From a virus, in IMG/VR virus record IMGVR_UViG_3300020438_000007, positions 166,740 through 230,739 of that record: a stretch of 64,000 nucleotides of DNA; one strand, 5' to 3'. The notes below the pieces were generated by a model. It was not told where the DNA came from. It was given only the letters and a program-made list of their open reading frames with translations, and searched no databases. Made by a program: the position numbers and the translations under genes. Positions 6,491-63,290 of the stretch are shown piece after piece; position 1 is the stretch's first letter, and each line of letters opens with the position of its first letter.

Positions 6491-6548
6491 ATAATAATCC
6501 ATTGGGATAGGATTACAACCAGTAGTGTGCCAGTTTATTATATGTCAC
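6491..6548 (-). promoter_or_regulatory. Early promoter module 10
   Basis: Dyad GTGCCA (6527) / TGTCAC (6543), 8-bp linker, -35 TTGTAA at 6513-6518, 16-bp spacer, -10 TATTAT at 6491-6496. The AAAC leader is replaced by a structured leader. Confidence 0.75.
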
Positions 6549-6729
6549 ATTCGGGGTTGAGAAATTGTCTATTTCGCTTTACCTTAGTAGTTGAAATATC
6601 AATTAGGTCTTCTAACTCTTCAATAGAATTAGATAGGTTATCATCATCTTTCTCTTCAGAATAGAAAAATAATGCTTCACTTAACAAGTTGAATTGCTTG
6701 TCAGTTAGTGTTACATCGATCTTATACAT
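6538..6729 (-). CDS. LTDxQFN-family small early protein
   Basis: 63 residues, MYKIDVTLTDKQFNLLSEAL, acidic middle and basic C-terminus. LTDKQFN is identical to the protein starting at 2264. GAGGTAAG before the ATG; one base separates it from the upstream oxygenase gene's stop. Confidence 0.65.
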   Translation of the reverse strand: MYKIDVTLTDKQFNLLSEALFFYSEEKDDDNLSNSIEELEDLIDISTTKVKRNRQFLNPECDI

Positions 6730-56983: not shown

Positions 56984-57228
56984 CATCTTCTACTAATAAA
57001 AACGTCGCCTTCGCCATCATCATCTTCATCTCTTCGAGGATTGAAGACTAATAACTGTTCTCCAGACTCTACATCTCGCATTTCTGGATGTAAATCTGAT
57101 CTCTTGGTTCTTGTTGGTTTGTTCATTTCATCAAATGTCGCAGTCATGGTTTTAAACATAAATGCAAATGTTGCCCCCAATAAAGCGACAAAAAAGGTCA
57201 AATACAAAAATATCATGAAATCGTTCAT
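56983..57228 (-). CDS. Membrane protein
   Basis: 81 residues: N-terminal helix (MIFLYLTFFVALLGATFAFM) and a charged tail (NPRRDEDDDGEGDVFISRR). Four-base overlap with the gene upstream. Function unknown. Confidence 0.6.
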   Translation of the reverse strand: MNDFMIFLYLTFFVALLGATFAFMFKTMTATFDEMNKPTRTKRSDLHPEMRDVESGEQLLVFNPRRDEDDDGEGDVFISRR

Positions 57229-57557
57229 CTGTTGAATAACTTTTGGATGGGAACTTGCCTCACTCTATCTATAACGTCATTTTCGACTCTATCTACGATC
57301 CTGTCCAATAAACCAATATCAATCTGCATGAATGGCGGAATGATACCCAATAAACGGAGTAATCCATCTACAAATAAAGCAAGAGTTGTAAATCCAAGGA
57401 TCATACTGAGGACAGTTGCATCACGATTATGTTTTGCCATTGATGCTTCATCAATCTTCCTTGCCTCGCCTATGGCATATTTGATGAGTTCATCAACCTC
57501 TTCTTTTGTGTATGTATCCCTTTTTGGTTTATATACGTCTGAAATAGGTAAATCCAT
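57225..57557 (-). CDS. Membrane-associated protein behind repeat element A
   Basis: 110 residues from ATG 57557 (MDLPISDVYKPKRDTYTKEE), with a helix LSMILGFTTLALFVDGLLRLL and an amphipathic C-terminus. An in-frame ATG at 57662 exists, but the interval to 57557 is filled by a 69-bp element also found directly before the carbamoyltransferase ATG, so it is leader, and AGGGTCAGC is the likely ribosome site. Function unknown. Confidence 0.6.
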   Translation of the reverse strand: MDLPISDVYKPKRDTYTKEEVDELIKYAIGEARKIDEASMAKHNRDATVLSMILGFTTLALFVDGLLRLLGIIPPFMQIDIGLLDRIVDRVENDVIDRVRQVPIQKLFNR

Positions 57558-57559
57558 AA

Positions 57560-57628
57560 GCTGACCCTGTAGGACAGAAAAATACCCGAATTTTTTTACC
57601 AGCTTTTTAGGCTTTGAAAGCTGATTTT
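57560..57628 (-). repeat. Duplicated 69-bp leader element, copy A
   Basis: It aligns over the full 69 bases with 60932-61000, without gaps by position. Conserved parts: a stem CAGCTTT...AAAGCTG, an A-run, TCGG, and GGGTCAGC just before the start codon. The AAAGCTG arm could pair with either the 5' CAGCTTT or the 3' CAGCTT next to the ATG. Confidence 0.75.
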
Positions 57629-57636
57629 CGTTTTGG

Positions 57637-57906
57637 TTAGTATCTATCTGGAATTTTGTCATAACTTTTGGAGTAGTCTGAGGGTTTCGCTTGTCGGATA
57701 CATCCAACAGCTTTTTCAAAACAAACTGAATTGAATTTGCCGTCTACTCCGATCAAAGTTATCTTAGTATGCTGAGAATGAATCTCAACTTCTTCTACTA
57801 AGTATGTATTTCCTTCGATAAGTTTAAGTTGAGGATCATCATTGTTCCCCCACCTAACTTGCTCAGGTGTACAACCCAAAAATCTGACTTGATCTCCTAT
57901 TTTCAT
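57637..57906 (-). CDS. Hypothetical beta-rich protein
   Basis: 89 residues, MKIGDQVRFLGCTPEQVRWG, YLVEEVEIHSQHTKITLIGV: looks like a small SH3/KOW-type barrel. Overlaps the 28-aa gene as ATGA. Function unknown. Confidence 0.6.
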   Translation of the reverse strand: MKIGDQVRFLGCTPEQVRWGNNDDPQLKLIEGNTYLVEEVEIHSQHTKITLIGVDGKFNSVCFEKAVGCIRQAKPSDYSKSYDKIPDRY

Positions 57907-57989
57907 AGTCCTCTATGTGGATCATAATATAAAAGTGTCCATGCAATGTAAATGGTTGCTAGGACACTGGGAATTAGTAATAAAGGCAT
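57903..57989 (-). CDS. Tiny membrane protein (28 aa)
   Basis: ATG 57989 (MPLLLIPSVLATIYIAWTLL, then YYDPHRGL), TGA at 57903-57905 overlapping the next ATG. One membrane helix. Directly behind a consensus promoter. Function unknown; size resembles small photosystem/cytochrome subunits, but I see no match. Confidence 0.6.
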   Translation of the reverse strand: MPLLLIPSVLATIYIAWTLLYYDPHRGL

Positions 57990-58006
57990 TGTAATGCAAT
58001 GGTTAA

Positions 58007-58156
58007 TTAAATTATATCGGAATCTTGATCTTCTGTCAAGGGAAGTCCGAGTGTTTTTATGTTTAAAAGTTCTTGGAGAAATTTTATCTCCGCTTTTAGT
58101 TTCTGGTTTTCTTCTTCTAAGAAGTCGCAGTGCTCTGCGTAAATGTGAATACTCAT
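58007..58156 (-). CDS. Small coiled-coil protein (49 aa)
   Basis: ATG 58156 (MSIHIYAEHCDFLEEENQKL), leucine-zipper-like (LEEENQKLKAEIKFLQELLN), TAA at 58007-58009. The 3' end holds the promoter of the next gene. It follows a terminator. Confidence 0.65.
   Translation of the reverse strand: MSIHIYAEHCDFLEEENQKLKAEIKFLQELLNIKTLGLPLTEDQDSDII
58011..58039 (-). promoter_or_regulatory. Consensus promoter TTGACA-17-TATAAT
   Basis: -35 TTGACA at 58034-58039 and -10 TATAAT at 58011-58016, for the 28-aa membrane protein and genes after it. Confidence 0.8.
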
Positions 58157-58164
58157 AAATGCGA

Positions 58165-58188
58165 AGAGACCCCCTTTCGGAGGTCTCT
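58165..58188 (-). terminator. Terminator-like hairpin
   Basis: AGAGACC-TCC-GAAA-GGG-GGTCTCT, a strong 10-bp stem with tetraloop; T-tract weak. It lies between the Cys-bearing gene and the coiled-coil gene. Confidence 0.7.
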
Positions 58189-58211
58189 GAGTTTAGTTCA
58201 TTGGTTTGGAA

Positions 58212-58373
58212 TTACCGTAAGATTTCTGTACATACTTTTCGACAGTAATTGTCCGTACAATCTATCATACAGGCAAAGTATTCGTCGATTAAGTCGTCCT
58301 GAGAAAATTCAGGATTTGTATCTTCGTGATGAATCCATTCTGCCATTTGATTGCGTGACATTCGGGTTCTCAT
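58212..58373 (-). CDS. Small cysteine-bearing protein (53 aa)
   Basis: ATG 58373 (MRTRMSRNQMAEWIHHEDTN), excellent GAGGAG ribosome site, C-terminal cysteines in CMIDCTDNYCRKVC, TAA 58212-58214. The C-x4-C...C-x3-C spacing may bind metal. Late box TATAAATA about 80 bases upstream. Confidence 0.7.
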   Translation of the reverse strand: MRTRMSRNQMAEWIHHEDTNPEFSQDDLIDEYFACMIDCTDNYCRKVCTEILR

Positions 58374-58454
58374 AAATTTCTTCTCCTCTGAATTGTGATT
58401 TACATAACGAAGTTTTTCAGCATCACTTCATTTTGTCCGTCCTAATTCTACCAG

Positions 58455-58462
58455 TATTTATA
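58455..58462 (-). promoter_or_regulatory. Late promoter TATAAATA
   Basis: Exact T4-type late box on the minus strand, upstream of the cysteine-bearing gene; the leader contains a GAAGT...ACTTC hairpin. Confidence 0.65.
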
Positions 58463-58524
58463 GAGCAATTCCCGATTTTTGTGTTGAAGTTCACACACTG
58501 TAATGGCGTATTTTTACCCACGCA

Positions 58525-58623
58525 TTAATACTTACCTTCCTTTATATACATCATAATCAAGAAGGCCGCACTGGTGGCAACCGTTATCGACAATGCAATG
58601 ATTGCCGTATGTACTATGTTCAC
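58525..58623 (-). CDS. Tiny membrane protein (32 aa), GTG start
   Basis: GTG 58623 reads MNIVHTAIIALSITVATSAA with a helix to LIMMYIKEGKY; TAA at 58525-58527. A second frame from ATG 58639 to 58532 gives a 35-residue Cys-rich peptide (CEHSTYGNHC, CHQCGLL); both may not be real. The membrane frame looks more natural. Confidence 0.5.
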   Translation of the reverse strand: MNIVHTAIIALSITVATSAAFLIMMYIKEGKY

Positions 58624-58646
58624 AAAATTTACTTAACATAACGTAA

Positions 58647-58654
58647 TATTTATA
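58647..58654 (-). promoter_or_regulatory. Late promoter TATAAATA
   Basis: Exact late box 23 bases before GTG 58623 and seven bases before ATG 58639. Confidence 0.65.
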
Positions 58655-58657
58655 CCA

Positions 58658-58828
58658 TCAATCATCTTCCGTGTATGCTGATGGATTTTTCCTGAGAAAT
58701 TGCTTGCAATGTCCATGAACATCTATCTCCTGTTCCAAGTGTGCCTTAGTATGCACAACTTCAATGAATCCTATAATTAATAGTAAAAACACTGGTGCAA
58801 ACCAGAGTGGATTAGAAAGTATTTTCAT
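58658..58828 (-). CDS. Small membrane protein (56 aa)
   Basis: ATG 58828 (MKILSNPLWFAPVFLLLIIG), one helix, then VVHTKAHLEQEIDVHGHCKQ and an acidic end; TGA at 58658-58660. It lies downstream of a terminator, so it probably has its own promoter in or beyond that region. Function unknown. Confidence 0.65.
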   Translation of the reverse strand: MKILSNPLWFAPVFLLLIIGFIEVVHTKAHLEQEIDVHGHCKQFLRKNPSAYTEDD

Positions 58829-58832
58829 TCAT

Positions 58833-58862
58833 AAAAAAAAACCTCTACAATATGTAGAGGTT
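58833..58862 (-). terminator. Rho-independent terminator
   Basis: AACCTCTACA-TAT-TGTAGAGGTT then nine T on the minus strand; ends the DUF4278-like unit. Confidence 0.92.
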
Positions 58863-58892
58863 AACGACAAGTAGATGTTTGTCAACTACTGA

Positions 58893-59036
58893 TCAGCTCT
58901 TAGATGCGAACTTGCGTTCCACCTTGACACCACGATACATTAGATCGTGACGTTGCTTCTTAGCAGCTTCTTCGAGTACCTTTGCATTGTACTCGGCAGA
59001 GTCATAAGAGACTCCTCTGTATGTGACTTGTGCCAT
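58893..59036 (-). CDS. DUF4278-like YRG protein
   Basis: 47 residues from ATG 59036 (MAQVTYRGVSYDSAEYNAKV), AGGAG upstream; the two YRGV motifs (VTYRGVSY, LMYRGVKVE) resemble cyanobacterial DUF4278. Downstream of the riboswitch-like leader and the 54-aa gene, so probably under the same control. Confidence 0.65.
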   Translation of the reverse strand: MAQVTYRGVSYDSAEYNAKVLEEAAKKQRHDLMYRGVKVERKFASKS

Positions 59037-59082
59037 CGGTTTTACTCCTGTAAGTAGTAGGGGGGTTTTAAATCCCGTTCCT

Positions 59083-59247
59083 TCAGTCGTCATTTGCGTC
59101 CCAGCACCCAGGCGTTGACTCTTGCATAACAAGAATCAGTTCCGCCTTCTCGTTCTCACTTAACGTGTTGTTCCTAAGTATTCGATCAGTAATGTCGAAT
59201 GCTTGAGAACACTCAAGTGAAGTATAGAGTAACAAGAGAGGTATCAT
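59083..59247 (-). CDS. Small cyanophage protein after riboswitch-like leader (54 aa)
   Basis: ATG 59247 (MIPLLLLYTSLECSQAFDIT), hydrophobic N-terminus, then ENEKAELILVMQESTP and GCWDANDD; TGA at 59083-59085. The pattern ECSxA...CxWDANDD looks conserved in cyanophages from memory. Immediately preceded by a second CGTTCATCCC. Confidence 0.65.
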   Translation of the reverse strand: MIPLLLLYTSLECSQAFDITDRILRNNTLSENEKAELILVMQESTPGCWDANDD

Positions 59248-59325
59248 GGGATGAACGATCCGTTCCGTGTCGGCTTACTTGCGTCCCCTCATTCTGCCAA
59301 AGGCAACTTGGGGGATGAACGTGTG
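59248..59325 (-). ncRNA. Glutamine-riboswitch-like leader
   Basis: Transcript start predicted near 59324. Core: CGTTCA (from 59321), stem TCCCC (59311-59315) with GGGGA (59284-59288), inner hairpin TGCC-TTT-GGCA, then ACGCAAGTAAG. This matches the glnA/downstream-peptide motif (CGUUCA, stem, ACGGAAGUAGG) except at two or three positions. A second CGTTCATCCC at 59248-59257 touches the ATG and could compete for the GGGGA strand. Confidence 0.5.
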
Positions 59326-59330
59326 TGTTA

Positions 59331-59359
59331 ATTATAACACAATGCAATTATTTATGCAA
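59331..59359 (-). promoter_or_regulatory. Promoter TTGCAT-17-TATAAT
   Basis: -35 TTGCAT at 59354-59359 and -10 TATAAT at 59331-59336; drives the riboswitch-like leader. A late-like ATAAATAA overlaps the spacer. Confidence 0.7.
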
Positions 59360-59395
59360 GTTTTTTGCAGCAATAGCGTGTGTATTGTTACAATT

Positions 59396-60931
59396 TTATG
59401 AAGATTTAACATTGTCACCTAGTACTAGAGTGTCTAGACCAGTCTCATAAAATAGTTCCAAGGCATCCCCAAACCTTCCAGCTATGGGTTTACCACCATT
59501 ATTTAGGGAAGTATTGAGCAAGACAGGTGATCCAGTCAACTTCTCAAACTCCTGTAGTAGACTGTAATAATCTTCTTGAGATTCATTTACTGTGTTGATT
59601 CTACATGTACCATCTACATGTGTGATTGTAGGATATCTGTCTGGTTCTAACACATCAGTCACATATAACATGTATGGACTGGGACCATTCCAGTAGAAAT
59701 TTTCACTTACCTTCTCTTCTAAAACAGAGGCACCGAATGGTCTGAATGGTTCTCTATGTTTAACCTTATTATTAATAAAGTCTTTCCCATGAGGATCAAA
59801 AGGATTCATAAGTATACTTCTATTACCTAATGCTCTAGGACCTATCTCACCATGTCCTTGATACCAACCAACAATCTCACCCTTGGCGAGTCTTTCTGCG
59901 GTCTCCTTGATAGTTTTGGTAGAAGGTCTATCAATAGGAGCCTGATCATCTTGCATAAAGGGGAATCCTTCTGTGGGGAGTGGCATCATATTGTGTTCCC
60001 TTCTTAGAAACTCTATTGCACCAAGACTCAATCCCTGATCGTATGCGTGTGGTGGTATAACAAGATTAGGTATGGCATCTTTCAATACCTTATTAATAAT
60101 AGTATTCTGTGCCACACCACCAGAGTACCCAACAATATCATCTGGTTTAACAAACTCTAGAAAATGTTTTAGATATATCTGTTCTGTATATTCATGTGCT
60201 GTATGAATATAATCCATGATGTATTGTTGATCGTGAAGATTATGATCTATTACATCAAAATTCCATAGTTTTTCTAGATCATCTATACCAATACCCTTAG
60301 CAGATATATCTGGATCATGTTTACCAAACGCTTTCAGAGCCATGATCTTCCCTGCCTGATCTAGGTAATGACCACCCATCTGTAAGGCAGCACCCATCCT
60401 AGTCATAATGAATCCAAGACTAGGAGAACCCTGTTGACTTGGAAATATACCTACTGTCTTGCCATGATCTATAAGTTTATCATCTCTCCATACACTACGA
60501 TACATCCAATCATCACCGAATCCATCAAAGACGAAGTGAAGATTGGGTTTGACCTTCATAGGCCAGAAACTTAATGTATGTGCATAGTGATGATCTATCC
60601 TGTGAATAGGGCATCTAAATCCTAAGTCTTTGAAAAAAGGTATATCTACTACTTCTGATATCTCTTGGGAATTTATAGAGAAGGATGTATGTACGACACC
60701 CATCCTTTCATATTCAGTTCCAGCACAGTCCATGATGATGCAGACACCATCAATAAACCAAGGTTGGATATTCCAATCCTCAAGTATTCTTGTCCATTGA
60801 TATACTCCGTTCTCAAAACCTACATGCTTACATTGATAGTCTCTTTCAAAAGATCTATATCTGACAGTCTCTCCGTCATAGTAAGTTACGTTTGCGTCAT
60901 GAGAGTCTAGTCTTAGACCTAATAATTTCAT
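59396..60931 (-). CDS. Carbamoyltransferase (NodU/TobZ family)
   Basis: 511 residues. LDSHDAN (His11), DHHYAH (113-118) and the C-terminal GWYQGHGEIGPRALGNRSIL, RPFGASVLEE and PVLLNTSLNN are carbamoyltransferase motifs: carbamoyl phosphate is activated to carbamoyl-AMP, then passed to a hydroxyl or amine. In phages such enzymes may modify nucleotides, sugars or surface structures; substrate unknown. Start at 60931 directly abuts leader element B. Confidence 0.85.
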   Translation of the reverse strand: MKLLGLRLDSHDANVTYYDGETVRYRSFERDYQCKHVGFENGVYQWTRILEDWNIQPWFIDGVCIIMDCAGTEYERMGVVHTSFSINSQEISEVVDIPFFKDLGFRCPIHRIDHHYAHTLSFWPMKVKPNLHFVFDGFGDDWMYRSVWRDDKLIDHGKTVGIFPSQQGSPSLGFIMTRMGAALQMGGHYLDQAGKIMALKAFGKHDPDISAKGIGIDDLEKLWNFDVIDHNLHDQQYIMDYIHTAHEYTEQIYLKHFLEFVKPDDIVGYSGGVAQNTIINKVLKDAIPNLVIPPHAYDQGLSLGAIEFLRREHNMMPLPTEGFPFMQDDQAPIDRPSTKTIKETAERLAKGEIVGWYQGHGEIGPRALGNRSILMNPFDPHGKDFINNKVKHREPFRPFGASVLEEKVSENFYWNGPSPYMLYVTDVLEPDRYPTITHVDGTCRINTVNESQEDYYSLLQEFEKLTGSPVLLNTSLNNGGKPIAGRFGDALELFYETGLDTLVLGDNVKSS

Positions 60932-61000
60932 GCTGACCCTACGGTTCAAATTTTTATCCGAGTTTTTTTCCCAGCTTTTTGTGTTTTAAAAGCTGATTTT
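60932..61000 (-). repeat. Duplicated 69-bp leader element, copy B
   Basis: Same length and order as 57560-57628: CAGCTTT...AAAGCTG stem, A-run, CTCGG, then GGGTCAGC immediately before the carbamoyltransferase ATG. Fills the whole gap between two genes. Confidence 0.75.
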
Positions 61001-61253
61001 ACATGCCAGGTGGCATCGAAGGATCATTCATAGGCATACCAGAACCAGGCATATTATATCCCTGACCCATTCCACCCATGCCAGGAGGTCCTCCCTGTTG
61101 TCCTCCACCACCAAACTGACGGTTGACTCCGCCTGGTTGCATCTTCTCAAACCCATGTTCAACTCTATGAGATTCTACAGTTTGTTTAATTGTTTCCAAT
61201 TCTTTCTGTAGATCCTTTAACTTATAGAGGATCAAATCAATCTTATCTTCCAT
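60999..61253 (-). CDS. Coiled-coil protein with Gly/Pro/Met tail
   Basis: 84 residues: helix MEDKIDLILYKLKDLQKELE and low-complexity tail (GGGGQQGGPPGMGGMGQG). Possibly structural or an assembly factor. Overlaps the next gene by 11 bases. Confidence 0.6.
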   Translation of the reverse strand: MEDKIDLILYKLKDLQKELETIKQTVESHRVEHGFEKMQPGGVNRQFGGGGQQGGPPGMGGMGQGYNMPGSGMPMNDPSMPPGM

Positions 61254-62318: not shown

Positions 62319-62942
62319 TCACTTCAAGTTGAAAGTGTAAATGTGTTTGCCTGGAGTGTTGACATAATGTGCATCTCCTGACTCCAATGCGTCTCGAAGT
62401 TTCTGTGCAAATGGTTTTAATTTATTCTTATACTTTGTTCTGATTGCCTTATCATGATAAGTTTTATCACCGTACTGTATGAGTCTGCCTGGCGAAGTTA
62501 ACCCCTCATGTTTGAAGTTAGTTGCCTTGTATATGACCCCTCTGTGACCGTGAAATGCGTCTGCATAGGACACGATGATCTTGTGGTCGGTGTTCTTTTT
62601 CAACCACCTCTGAGTCTTTCCTATGAAGTAACTCTCAGTGCATTTGGGAGTGGCATCAATACAACATAGTCTCCTGAGTTCAATGACATCACTCTCACTC
62701 TCTCCATACTTCCTCCACGCATTTGCCATACCTAGAGGACCATATATCATTGCACCTATCAAGGTAGAGTCACAGTAAAGTCCAAACACATGAGATATTC
62801 TGAGTCCATTGACACTCTTAGAGTAGTGCCATGACTCTATAAAATCTCTCACACACTGTATGTTAGTTACCTTGACATCAAAATCCTTTACCCTTTTACC
62901 CAAGGGCACTGAATAATCGTCGTAAAGAAGTGACTTCAACAT
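62319..62942 (-). CDS. Mom-like DNA modification protein (GNAT fold)
   Basis: 207 residues. FIESWHYSKSVNG, FGLYCDSTLIGAMIYGPLG, ELRRLCCIDATPKCTESYFI and HKIIVSYADAFHGHRGVIYK are segments of the phage Mu Mom family, which adds a bulky group to adenine in DNA and blocks restriction. The ATG at 62942 lies six bases after TATACT, so the mRNA is predicted to be leaderless. Confidence 0.7.
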   Translation of the reverse strand: MLKSLLYDDYSVPLGKRVKDFDVKVTNIQCVRDFIESWHYSKSVNGLRISHVFGLYCDSTLIGAMIYGPLGMANAWRKYGESESDVIELRRLCCIDATPKCTESYFIGKTQRWLKKNTDHKIIVSYADAFHGHRGVIYKATNFKHEGLTSPGRLIQYGDKTYHDKAIRTKYKNKLKPFAQKLRDALESGDAHYVNTPGKHIYTFNLK

Positions 62943-62977: not shown

Positions 62978-63061
62978 TGGGAGAAGAGGGACTCGAACCC
63001 TCACGACATTTCTGCCAACAGATTTTAAGTCTGGTGTGTCTACCGATTCCACCACACTCCC
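62978..63061 (-). tRNA. tRNA-Leu (UAA)
   Basis: 84 bases with long variable arm. Acceptor GGGAGTG pairs with the 3' strand; anticodon loop CTTAAAA gives UAA; T-loop GGTTCGAGTCC. CCA not encoded. Confidence 0.95.
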
Positions 63062-63064
63062 GAA

Positions 63065-63138
63065 CGACTCAAGTAGGACTCGAACCTACGACCGACTGCT
63101 TAGAAGGCAGTTGCTCTATCCATCTGAGCTATTGAGTC
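63065..63138 (-). tRNA. tRNA-Arg (UCU)
   Basis: 74 bases, acceptor GACTCAA/TTGAGTC, anticodon loop CTTCTAA (UCU), T-loop GGTTCGAGTCC. CCA not encoded. Its 5' end touches the tRNA-Thr CCA. Confidence 0.95.
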
Positions 63139-63215
63139 TGGAGCCACTTGTCGGACTTGAACCGACGACCTACGCATTACAAATGCGTTGCTCTATCCAG
63201 CTGAGCTAAAGTGGC
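63139..63215 (-). tRNA. tRNA-Thr (UGU)
   Basis: 77 bases including an encoded CCA (63139-63141). Acceptor GCCACTT/AAGTGGC, anticodon loop TTTGTAA (UGU). The only one of the four with CCA in the DNA. Confidence 0.95.
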
Positions 63216-63218
63216 GAA

Positions 63219-63290
63219 TAGGACTACCGAGAATTGAACTCGGTTCACACCGTTATAAGCAGTGGGCATTAACCAATATGCGATAGTCCC
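63219..63290 (-). tRNA. tRNA-Ile (UAU)
   Basis: 72 bases; acceptor GGGACTA/TAGTCCT (one G-U), anticodon loop CTTATAA gives UAU, which reads the rare AUA codon. CCA not encoded. First tRNA of the transcript. Confidence 0.9.

Follow-up and report, generated by a model that had tools for sequence, protein, structure and literature searches.

Among the elements of T4-type phages, the promoter-early stem-loops (PeSLs) are said to be mobile terminator/promoter cassettes, reportedly introduced by Arbiol and colleagues in 2010 and by Comeau and colleagues in 2014. A later paper presents the PeSL as a promoter-terminator cassette of T4-type phages that is thought to mediate gene shuffling, and mentions few PeSLs in the cyanophage S-PM2 (PMC4503421). 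Terminators were earlier predicted in cyanophage genomes by general software (PMC3037559), and the cis-regulatory RNAs of cyanophages include the glutamine riboswitch, wcaG, PhotoRC-II and manA (PMC9964418). Here we describe a family of intergenic elements of about 70 nt from T4-like cyanophages, two copies of which (A and B) are present in the window, i.e. the whole stretch of 64,000 nucleotides analysed. This window corresponds to positions 166740-230739 of a 230,739-base IMG/VR virus record (IMGVR_UViG_3300020438_000007) and constitutes one end of the genome of a T4-like cyanophage, the nearest named phages being Synechococcus phages S-SSM7 and S-SSM6a. The family is probably composed of terminator or boundary cassettes resembling the PeSLs, of which copy B would be a disarmed member and copy A a member absorbed into coding sequence.

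The genes of interest are all encoded on the minus strand and the element consequently runs from high to low coordinates, which corrects the initial annotation. Copies A (57628-57560) and B (61000-60932) align end to end and without gap over 69 bases, as had been stated, and both contain CAGCTTT..AAAGCTG and GGGTCAGC. The duplication had been described as exact, but only 52 of the 69 bases (75%) are identical. Since no other ungapped alignment of copy A on either strand of the window exceeds 36/69, and since blastn within the genome relates copies A and B with an E-value of 2.9e-9, the two copies are considered as homologous, not identical. A third, more diverged copy was detected outside the window (record positions 6504-6566, minus strand) by R1, a sequence-only profile built from the element. 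It is localized between a stop codon and an open reading frame (ORF) of 169 aa, an arrangement shared by the relatives of this ORF in L067 and L072 (L-numbers are the labels of the compared alleles or loci). This copy, like the wide spread of the element among other cyanophages, had been missed by the initial annotation.

When IMG/VR was scanned with patterns taken from several parts of the element, about 170 loci were obtained, and nearly all the matches to gapped patterns displayed equal or almost equal spacing. Each element begins with a 5' box similar to ACCAAAATCGACTTTTARTTCC, continues with a hairpin region that surrounds a conserved A-run and then with a T-run or a AAAAATTTG stretch, and ends with a 3' box (TNTAGGGTCG or TNTAGGGTTTTTT); about 20 nt on each side are conserved across genera. 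In one search R1 matched 20 of 20 cyanomyovirus records, mostly with one to three copies each. Seven of these records (P-SSM3, P-HM2, P-RSM1, P-TIM40, P-SSM7, metaG-MbCM1 and AG-345-L05) had been retrieved on the basis of their gp7-like gene, independently of the element, and the weakest best matches among the 20 were those of P-SSM3 (3.4e-7) and P-HM2 (1.8e-7). The control search with R1 gave no match in T4, P-SSP7 and S-PM2, and a single weak partial match (18.6 bits) in RB49. Scanning the genomes of bacteria and archaea for the strict T-run form gave no match, although diverged copies could escape such a scan. A blastn search with a T-run member also returned Escherichia phages; the hits shown were confined to the hairpin (query positions 25-55 of 83), as expected, since any similar terminator would match there. 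Rfam (including Rfam 15) contained neither a match to the family nor a curated model for it, and no description was found in the open-licence literature, where no search was aimed at the sequence of the element. The family is apparently unnamed, cyanophage-specific and, with its two-hairpin design, undescribed.

Its members occur in two overlapping forms, with or without the T-run. In the T-run members, a stem is formed around the A-run and followed by at least six T. The arms of this terminator stem (P3) vary and yet match each other (CCCCGA/UCGGGG, GCCGA/UCGGC, CUGGGAAA/UUUCCCAG, GCUGGAA/UUCUGGC and others). The non-redundant set includes 26 T-run members, 18 of which have the terminator stem against a mean of 3.9 in shuffled sequences, and the presence of the stem is associated with that of the T-run (p 0.0013). 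Many members lacking the T-run carry a hairpin of the CAGCTTTT/AAAAGCTG type. This 5' hairpin (P2), the one noticed in the initial annotation, is commoner among the members without T-run (10/32 with the strict score, versus 0.8 in shuffles) and displays sequence variants such as CGCUAUUU/AAAUAGUG, GACUUUU/AAAAGUC and UCGGCUUUU/AAAGGCCGA. Examined column by column in 18 diverse sequences, the hairpin shows 13 cells with two-sided changes against 7.1 +/- 2.2 in shuffled alignments; 13 such cells are reached by 6 of 500 shuffles, and all slid registers give lower values. P2 and P3 share the segment AGCUGG and tend to exclude each other in the non-redundant set (p 0.048). Both copies of the window fold as a CAGCUUUU/AAAAGCUG hairpin with no U-tract directly after it, and neither was listed in a scan of the minus strand for terminators: the feature of intrinsic terminators, a GC stem followed by a U-tract, is absent in A and B and present in the T-run members. 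A possible pseudoknot of the H type, whose third loop would be the A-run, and a possible outer helix joining the 5' and 3' boxes (ACUUU/AGGGU, AAAACC/GGGUUUU) were considered by eye and appear in some minimum free energy (MFE) folds.

The two forms also occupy different genomic positions. T-run members are found 3' of g32, facing convergent baseplate genes, in P-TIM68, RB11-B and S-SZBM1, and 3' of talC (Sf-CH5, S-T4), psbA (P-RSM6) and a 2-oxoglutarate oxygenase gene (P-SSM2), among others, whereas the members without T-run separate genes that have the same direction and only short gaps between them. The promoter pattern TTGACN-N16..18-TANNNT follows, within about 110 nt downstream, 32 of the 83 T-run members versus 4 of the 51 others, the background of 1.3% having been obtained from random stretches of the window only. 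Conversely, the start codon of an ORF comes directly after 41/51 members without T-run versus 23/83 members with it. In P-SSM2 (L141:1501-1682, plus strand), the element comes after the oxygenase gene and is followed by a sigma-70-like promoter and then, about 58 nt after this T-run member, by a glutamine riboswitch that matches RF01739 at the gathering score. No promoter pattern was found within 120 nt 3' of either copy of the window.

Copy B is intergenic. It fills the whole gap between the TAA of the Gly-rich ORF (61001-60999) and the ATG of the carbamoyltransferase (60931-60929), as had been claimed for both copies, a claim that does not hold for copy A, which is inside an open frame. In copy B the terminator stem is interrupted by a mismatch, includes U-G pairs and lacks a following T-run of 5 or more. 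In the window this copy ends in GGGTCAGC; most of the copy-B alleles have there GGGTCGCATG or GGGTCGAATG, without CAGC. The alleles L008 and L025 are 100% identical within the element and 99.5% identical in the sequence that precedes copy B. In L008 the element runs directly into the carbamoyltransferase, with no speD, whereas in L025 a speD gene of 110 aa (AdoMet decarboxylase, PF02675) begins at the exact 3' edge of copy B and precedes the carbamoyltransferase gene, which it slightly overlaps. The gene speD is found at the same place in L005 and L028, and the breakpoint of its gain or loss coincides with the last bases of the copy B element. Shortly 3' of the carbamoyltransferase, at 59255-59324 (minus strand), there is a sub-threshold match to the glutamine riboswitch (RF01704, 25.1 bits for a gathering score of 33; RF01739, 25.2 bits for 35).

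Copy A is found inside a continuous reading frame of 145 codons, from the ATG at 57662 to 57225, and the first part of this frame overlaps the last part of the ORF that precedes it. Orthologues of this gp7-like protein occur in many cyanophages and, in the other genera examined, start at the part located 3' of the element (e.g. MVDMIVKNFPLTEV in P-SSM4). By contrast, the frame through copy A is open in all the distinct alleles seen in the S-SSM7 group, which indicates a lineage-specific extension. The initial annotation had considered the extension from 57662 as not coding. However, where the window has an ATG as the codon after copy A, L017 has TTT, L029 CTT and L011 TTG, and in L026, L028 and L061 the element has diverged, reads QGHFLKDFPVSD (GHFLKDFPV..) and is followed by no ATG. 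A start just after copy A is therefore impossible or unlikely in these alleles, for which the upstream start (MTKSQ..) is the obvious one. As the relatives keep the frame open, several of them with no ATG after the element, the extension is most likely translated, and copy A was rejected as a 5' leader. Among the 13 variable sites of copy A, 7 are third positions, and the substitutions comprise 8 synonymous versus 10 non-synonymous steps, a pattern that, in a small sample, leans towards coding. A perfect sigma-70 consensus promoter (TTGACA-17-TATAAT) is observed at 58039-58011 (minus strand), upstream of the operon containing the KIPDRY ORF and the gp7-like gene. A strong terminator-like hairpin with T-run (AACCTCTACATATTGTAGAGGTT TTTTTTTATG), which does not belong to the element family, is found at 58862-58840 (minus strand).

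Features of the two copies and of related loci (window positions unless a locus label is given)
Feature	Positions	Strand	Evidence or remark
Copy B, intercistronic element	60932..61000	-	R1 profile match 60935-61002, 61.8 bits, E 9.9e-18
Copy B hairpin UCAGCUUUU/AAAAGCUGG, 9 pairs, then A-run	60971..60996	-	MFE -13.6 kcal/mol, z -2.86
Copy B 3' box GTAGGGTCAGC at carbamoyltransferase start	60932..60942	-	family forms TGTAGGGTCG or TNTAGGGTTTTTT
Nol-like carbamoyltransferase, downstream of copy B	59396..60931	-	PF16861, E 2.8e-55
Gly-rich 84-aa ORF, upstream of copy B	60999..61253	-	ORF
Copy A, within gp7-like (T4-GC 246) frame, encodes NQLSKPKKLVKKFGYFSVLQGQ	57560..57628	-	R1 match 57563-57632, 59.5 bits, E 5.4e-17
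Copy A hairpin AUCAGCUUU/AAAGCUGGU, 9 pairs	57598..57625	-	MFE -13.8 kcal/mol, z -1.77
gp7-like small protein (T4-GC 246), N-terminal extension MTKFQIDTNQNENQLSKPKKL..	57225..57662	-	frame and orthologues
89-aa ORF ending ..KIPDRY, overlaps gp7-like frame start	57637..57906	-	ORF
Member with both hairpins and T-run	L067:6631-6700	-	candidate conditional terminator
Member with both hairpins and T-run	L072:8272-8341	-	candidate conditional terminator
Member with both hairpins and T-run	L068:2806-2862	+	candidate conditional terminator
Member with both hairpins and T-run	L157:1501-1553	+	candidate conditional terminator

From these observations we propose that the ancestral role of the element would be to stop transcription where a gene block ends, often together with a new promoter placed immediately after it, its edge doubling as a boundary for gene gain and loss. 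Where the downstream gene belongs to the same operon, the T-run would be absent, possibly leaving a different hairpin. Copy B, which has no usable T-run, would be such a disarmed member: its remaining hairpin would pair the 5' box with the would-be upstream terminator arm. Being of the form without T-run, it is expected to let transcription read through into the carbamoyltransferase, the hairpin being left as an intercistronic stem-loop. Copy A would be a former element incorporated into the next gene, to which it adds an N-terminal extension specific to the lineage, its non-coding origin being, like the direction of change with the terminator first, what we infer from the comparison of sequences. 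The basic function of the family is probably ordinary. If this proposal is correct, the family would offer a searchable landmark for the ends of transcription units and for cassette boundaries in T4-like cyanophages, which are abundant viruses with little mapped transcript ends, and copy A a traceable case of an intergenic element turned into coding sequence.

Several points weigh against this proposal. The column-by-column support for the hairpin is modest. RNAalifold found no consensus fold in the same set of 18 sequences and a consensus of only 4 pairs in the whole family, although the structured recurring element of the initial annotation is supported by the two-sided changes with which relatives keep the hairpin. 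The limits between the classes (T-run, stem scores) were chosen by the analyst, and 22 of the 58 non-redundant members score for neither stem. The p-values for promoters and start codons overstate the significance, because the counted sequences are related. The element, present in most of the marine T4-type cyanophages examined, is common but not universal, since S-PM2, a cyanomyovirus, has no R1 match. Finally, the sequences directly show the family, the positions and stems of its members, the speD event and the open frame through copy A; termination, read-through, translation and any function of the remaining hairpin are deduced from them.

Other explanations have to be weighed against the same evidence. 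The members without T-run could be intercistronic hairpins that shield the 3' end of the preceding message or determine where it lies, apart from any termination. Their position between closely spaced co-directional genes and the hairpin with two-sided changes that many of them keep agree with such a role in mRNA stability or processing, which we regard as a tentative possibility; their boxes and spacing are, however, common to the T-run terminators, so that a purely separate origin is unlikely. A more elaborate scheme, in which P2 and P3, two hairpins made from shared segments, alternate in the course of evolution between terminator, attenuator and read-through states as genes are inserted behind the element, one copy becoming an N-terminal protein extension, appears doubtful. 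The conserved DNA could also serve as a pure recombination spacer kept for gene swapping, with an incidental RNA fold. The presence or absence of speD at the exact 3' edge of copy B in otherwise near-identical phages is what such a spacer would leave, but the terminator stems vary and keep their pairing, and the T-run members are found at operon ends, which indicates a function of the RNA and makes the spacer quite improbable.

Two further explanations attribute a regulatory switch to the element. In an attenuator, P2 (the 5' box with AAAAGCUG) would compete with P3, and a factor, the ribosome or the translation of an upstream ORF would switch termination. The AGCUGG segment common to P2 and P3 would allow it, and both folds occur together with a T-run in L067 and L072 (AGCTGGA/TCTGGCT followed by ATTTTTT), in L068 and L069 (GCTGGAA/TTCTGGC followed by ATTTTTT) and in L157 (CCCAGAA/TTCTGGG followed by CATTTTTT). 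These members are few, however, most of the others having one stem or the other; the degenerate terminator stem of copy B and the unrelated downstream genes also make an attenuator unlikely as an explanation of the family. The initial annotation had favoured a translational riboswitch or thermosensor, in which AAAGCTG would have two alternative partners, the 5' CAGCTTT and the CAGCTT at the start codon, the ribosome site being hidden in one of the two states. Either pairing is possible on paper for copy A, and GGGTCAGC also ends copy B of the window. The second pairing is nevertheless lost with CAGC in most of the copy-B alleles, and in copy A, within its reading frame, CAGCTT represents Gln-Leu codons and is replaced by CAACTA or CAGCTG in L011 and L029. 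The 5' hairpin persists in the MFE folds of the two window copies, the family is found beside unrelated genes, and no aptamer-like core was seen. No Rfam family reached its gathering score at the two copies; a single overlap below the threshold (Vimentin3, E 9.3) is at chance level. On the basis of the Rfam negatives and of the comparison of alleles, this very improbable explanation was rejected.

Beyond copy B, four clustered tRNA genes (Rfam matches) are present at 62978-63290 (minus strand), and the 207-aa ORF at 62319-62942 (minus strand) may resemble the Mom-like proteins of phage Mu, with an acetyltransferase fold.

The cassette proposal can finally be compared with the known systems. 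The T-run members share with intrinsic terminators a GC-containing stem with an immediate U-tract, located after stop codons and between convergent genes, and individual ones may already have been counted among the terminators predicted by general software (PMC3037559). They differ from ordinary terminators, which have no conserved flanking boxes, and many members of the family have no U-tract. The family is similar to the cis-regulatory RNAs described in cyanophages (PMC9964418) as phage intergenic hairpin elements, but none of its members matches their models. The likeness to the PeSLs is one of description, R1 giving nothing in T4 and only the weak partial match in RB49; S-PM2, in which the paper cited above reports few PeSLs (PMC4503421), has no R1 match to the cyanophage family. 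With regard to the intergenic position of the PeSLs the two copies differ, copy B lying between TAA and ATG and copy A within a reading frame. Both copies lack the terminator stem-loop with U-tract and the adjacent promoter of the PeSLs, and are therefore not filed among them. The family as a whole differs by its own 5' and 3' boxes, by a subclass with neither terminator nor promoter and by at least one copy inside coding sequence. It nonetheless resembles the PeSLs as a short composite intergenic element with a terminator-like stem-loop and often an adjacent sigma-70 (early) promoter, present at more than one site per genome and at the edges of gene gain and loss, as illustrated here by the three copies of the record and by speD at copy B. 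The PeSLs are the closest described kind, and the family, which as a whole would work like them, would represent the cyanophage counterpart of PeSL-like cassettes.

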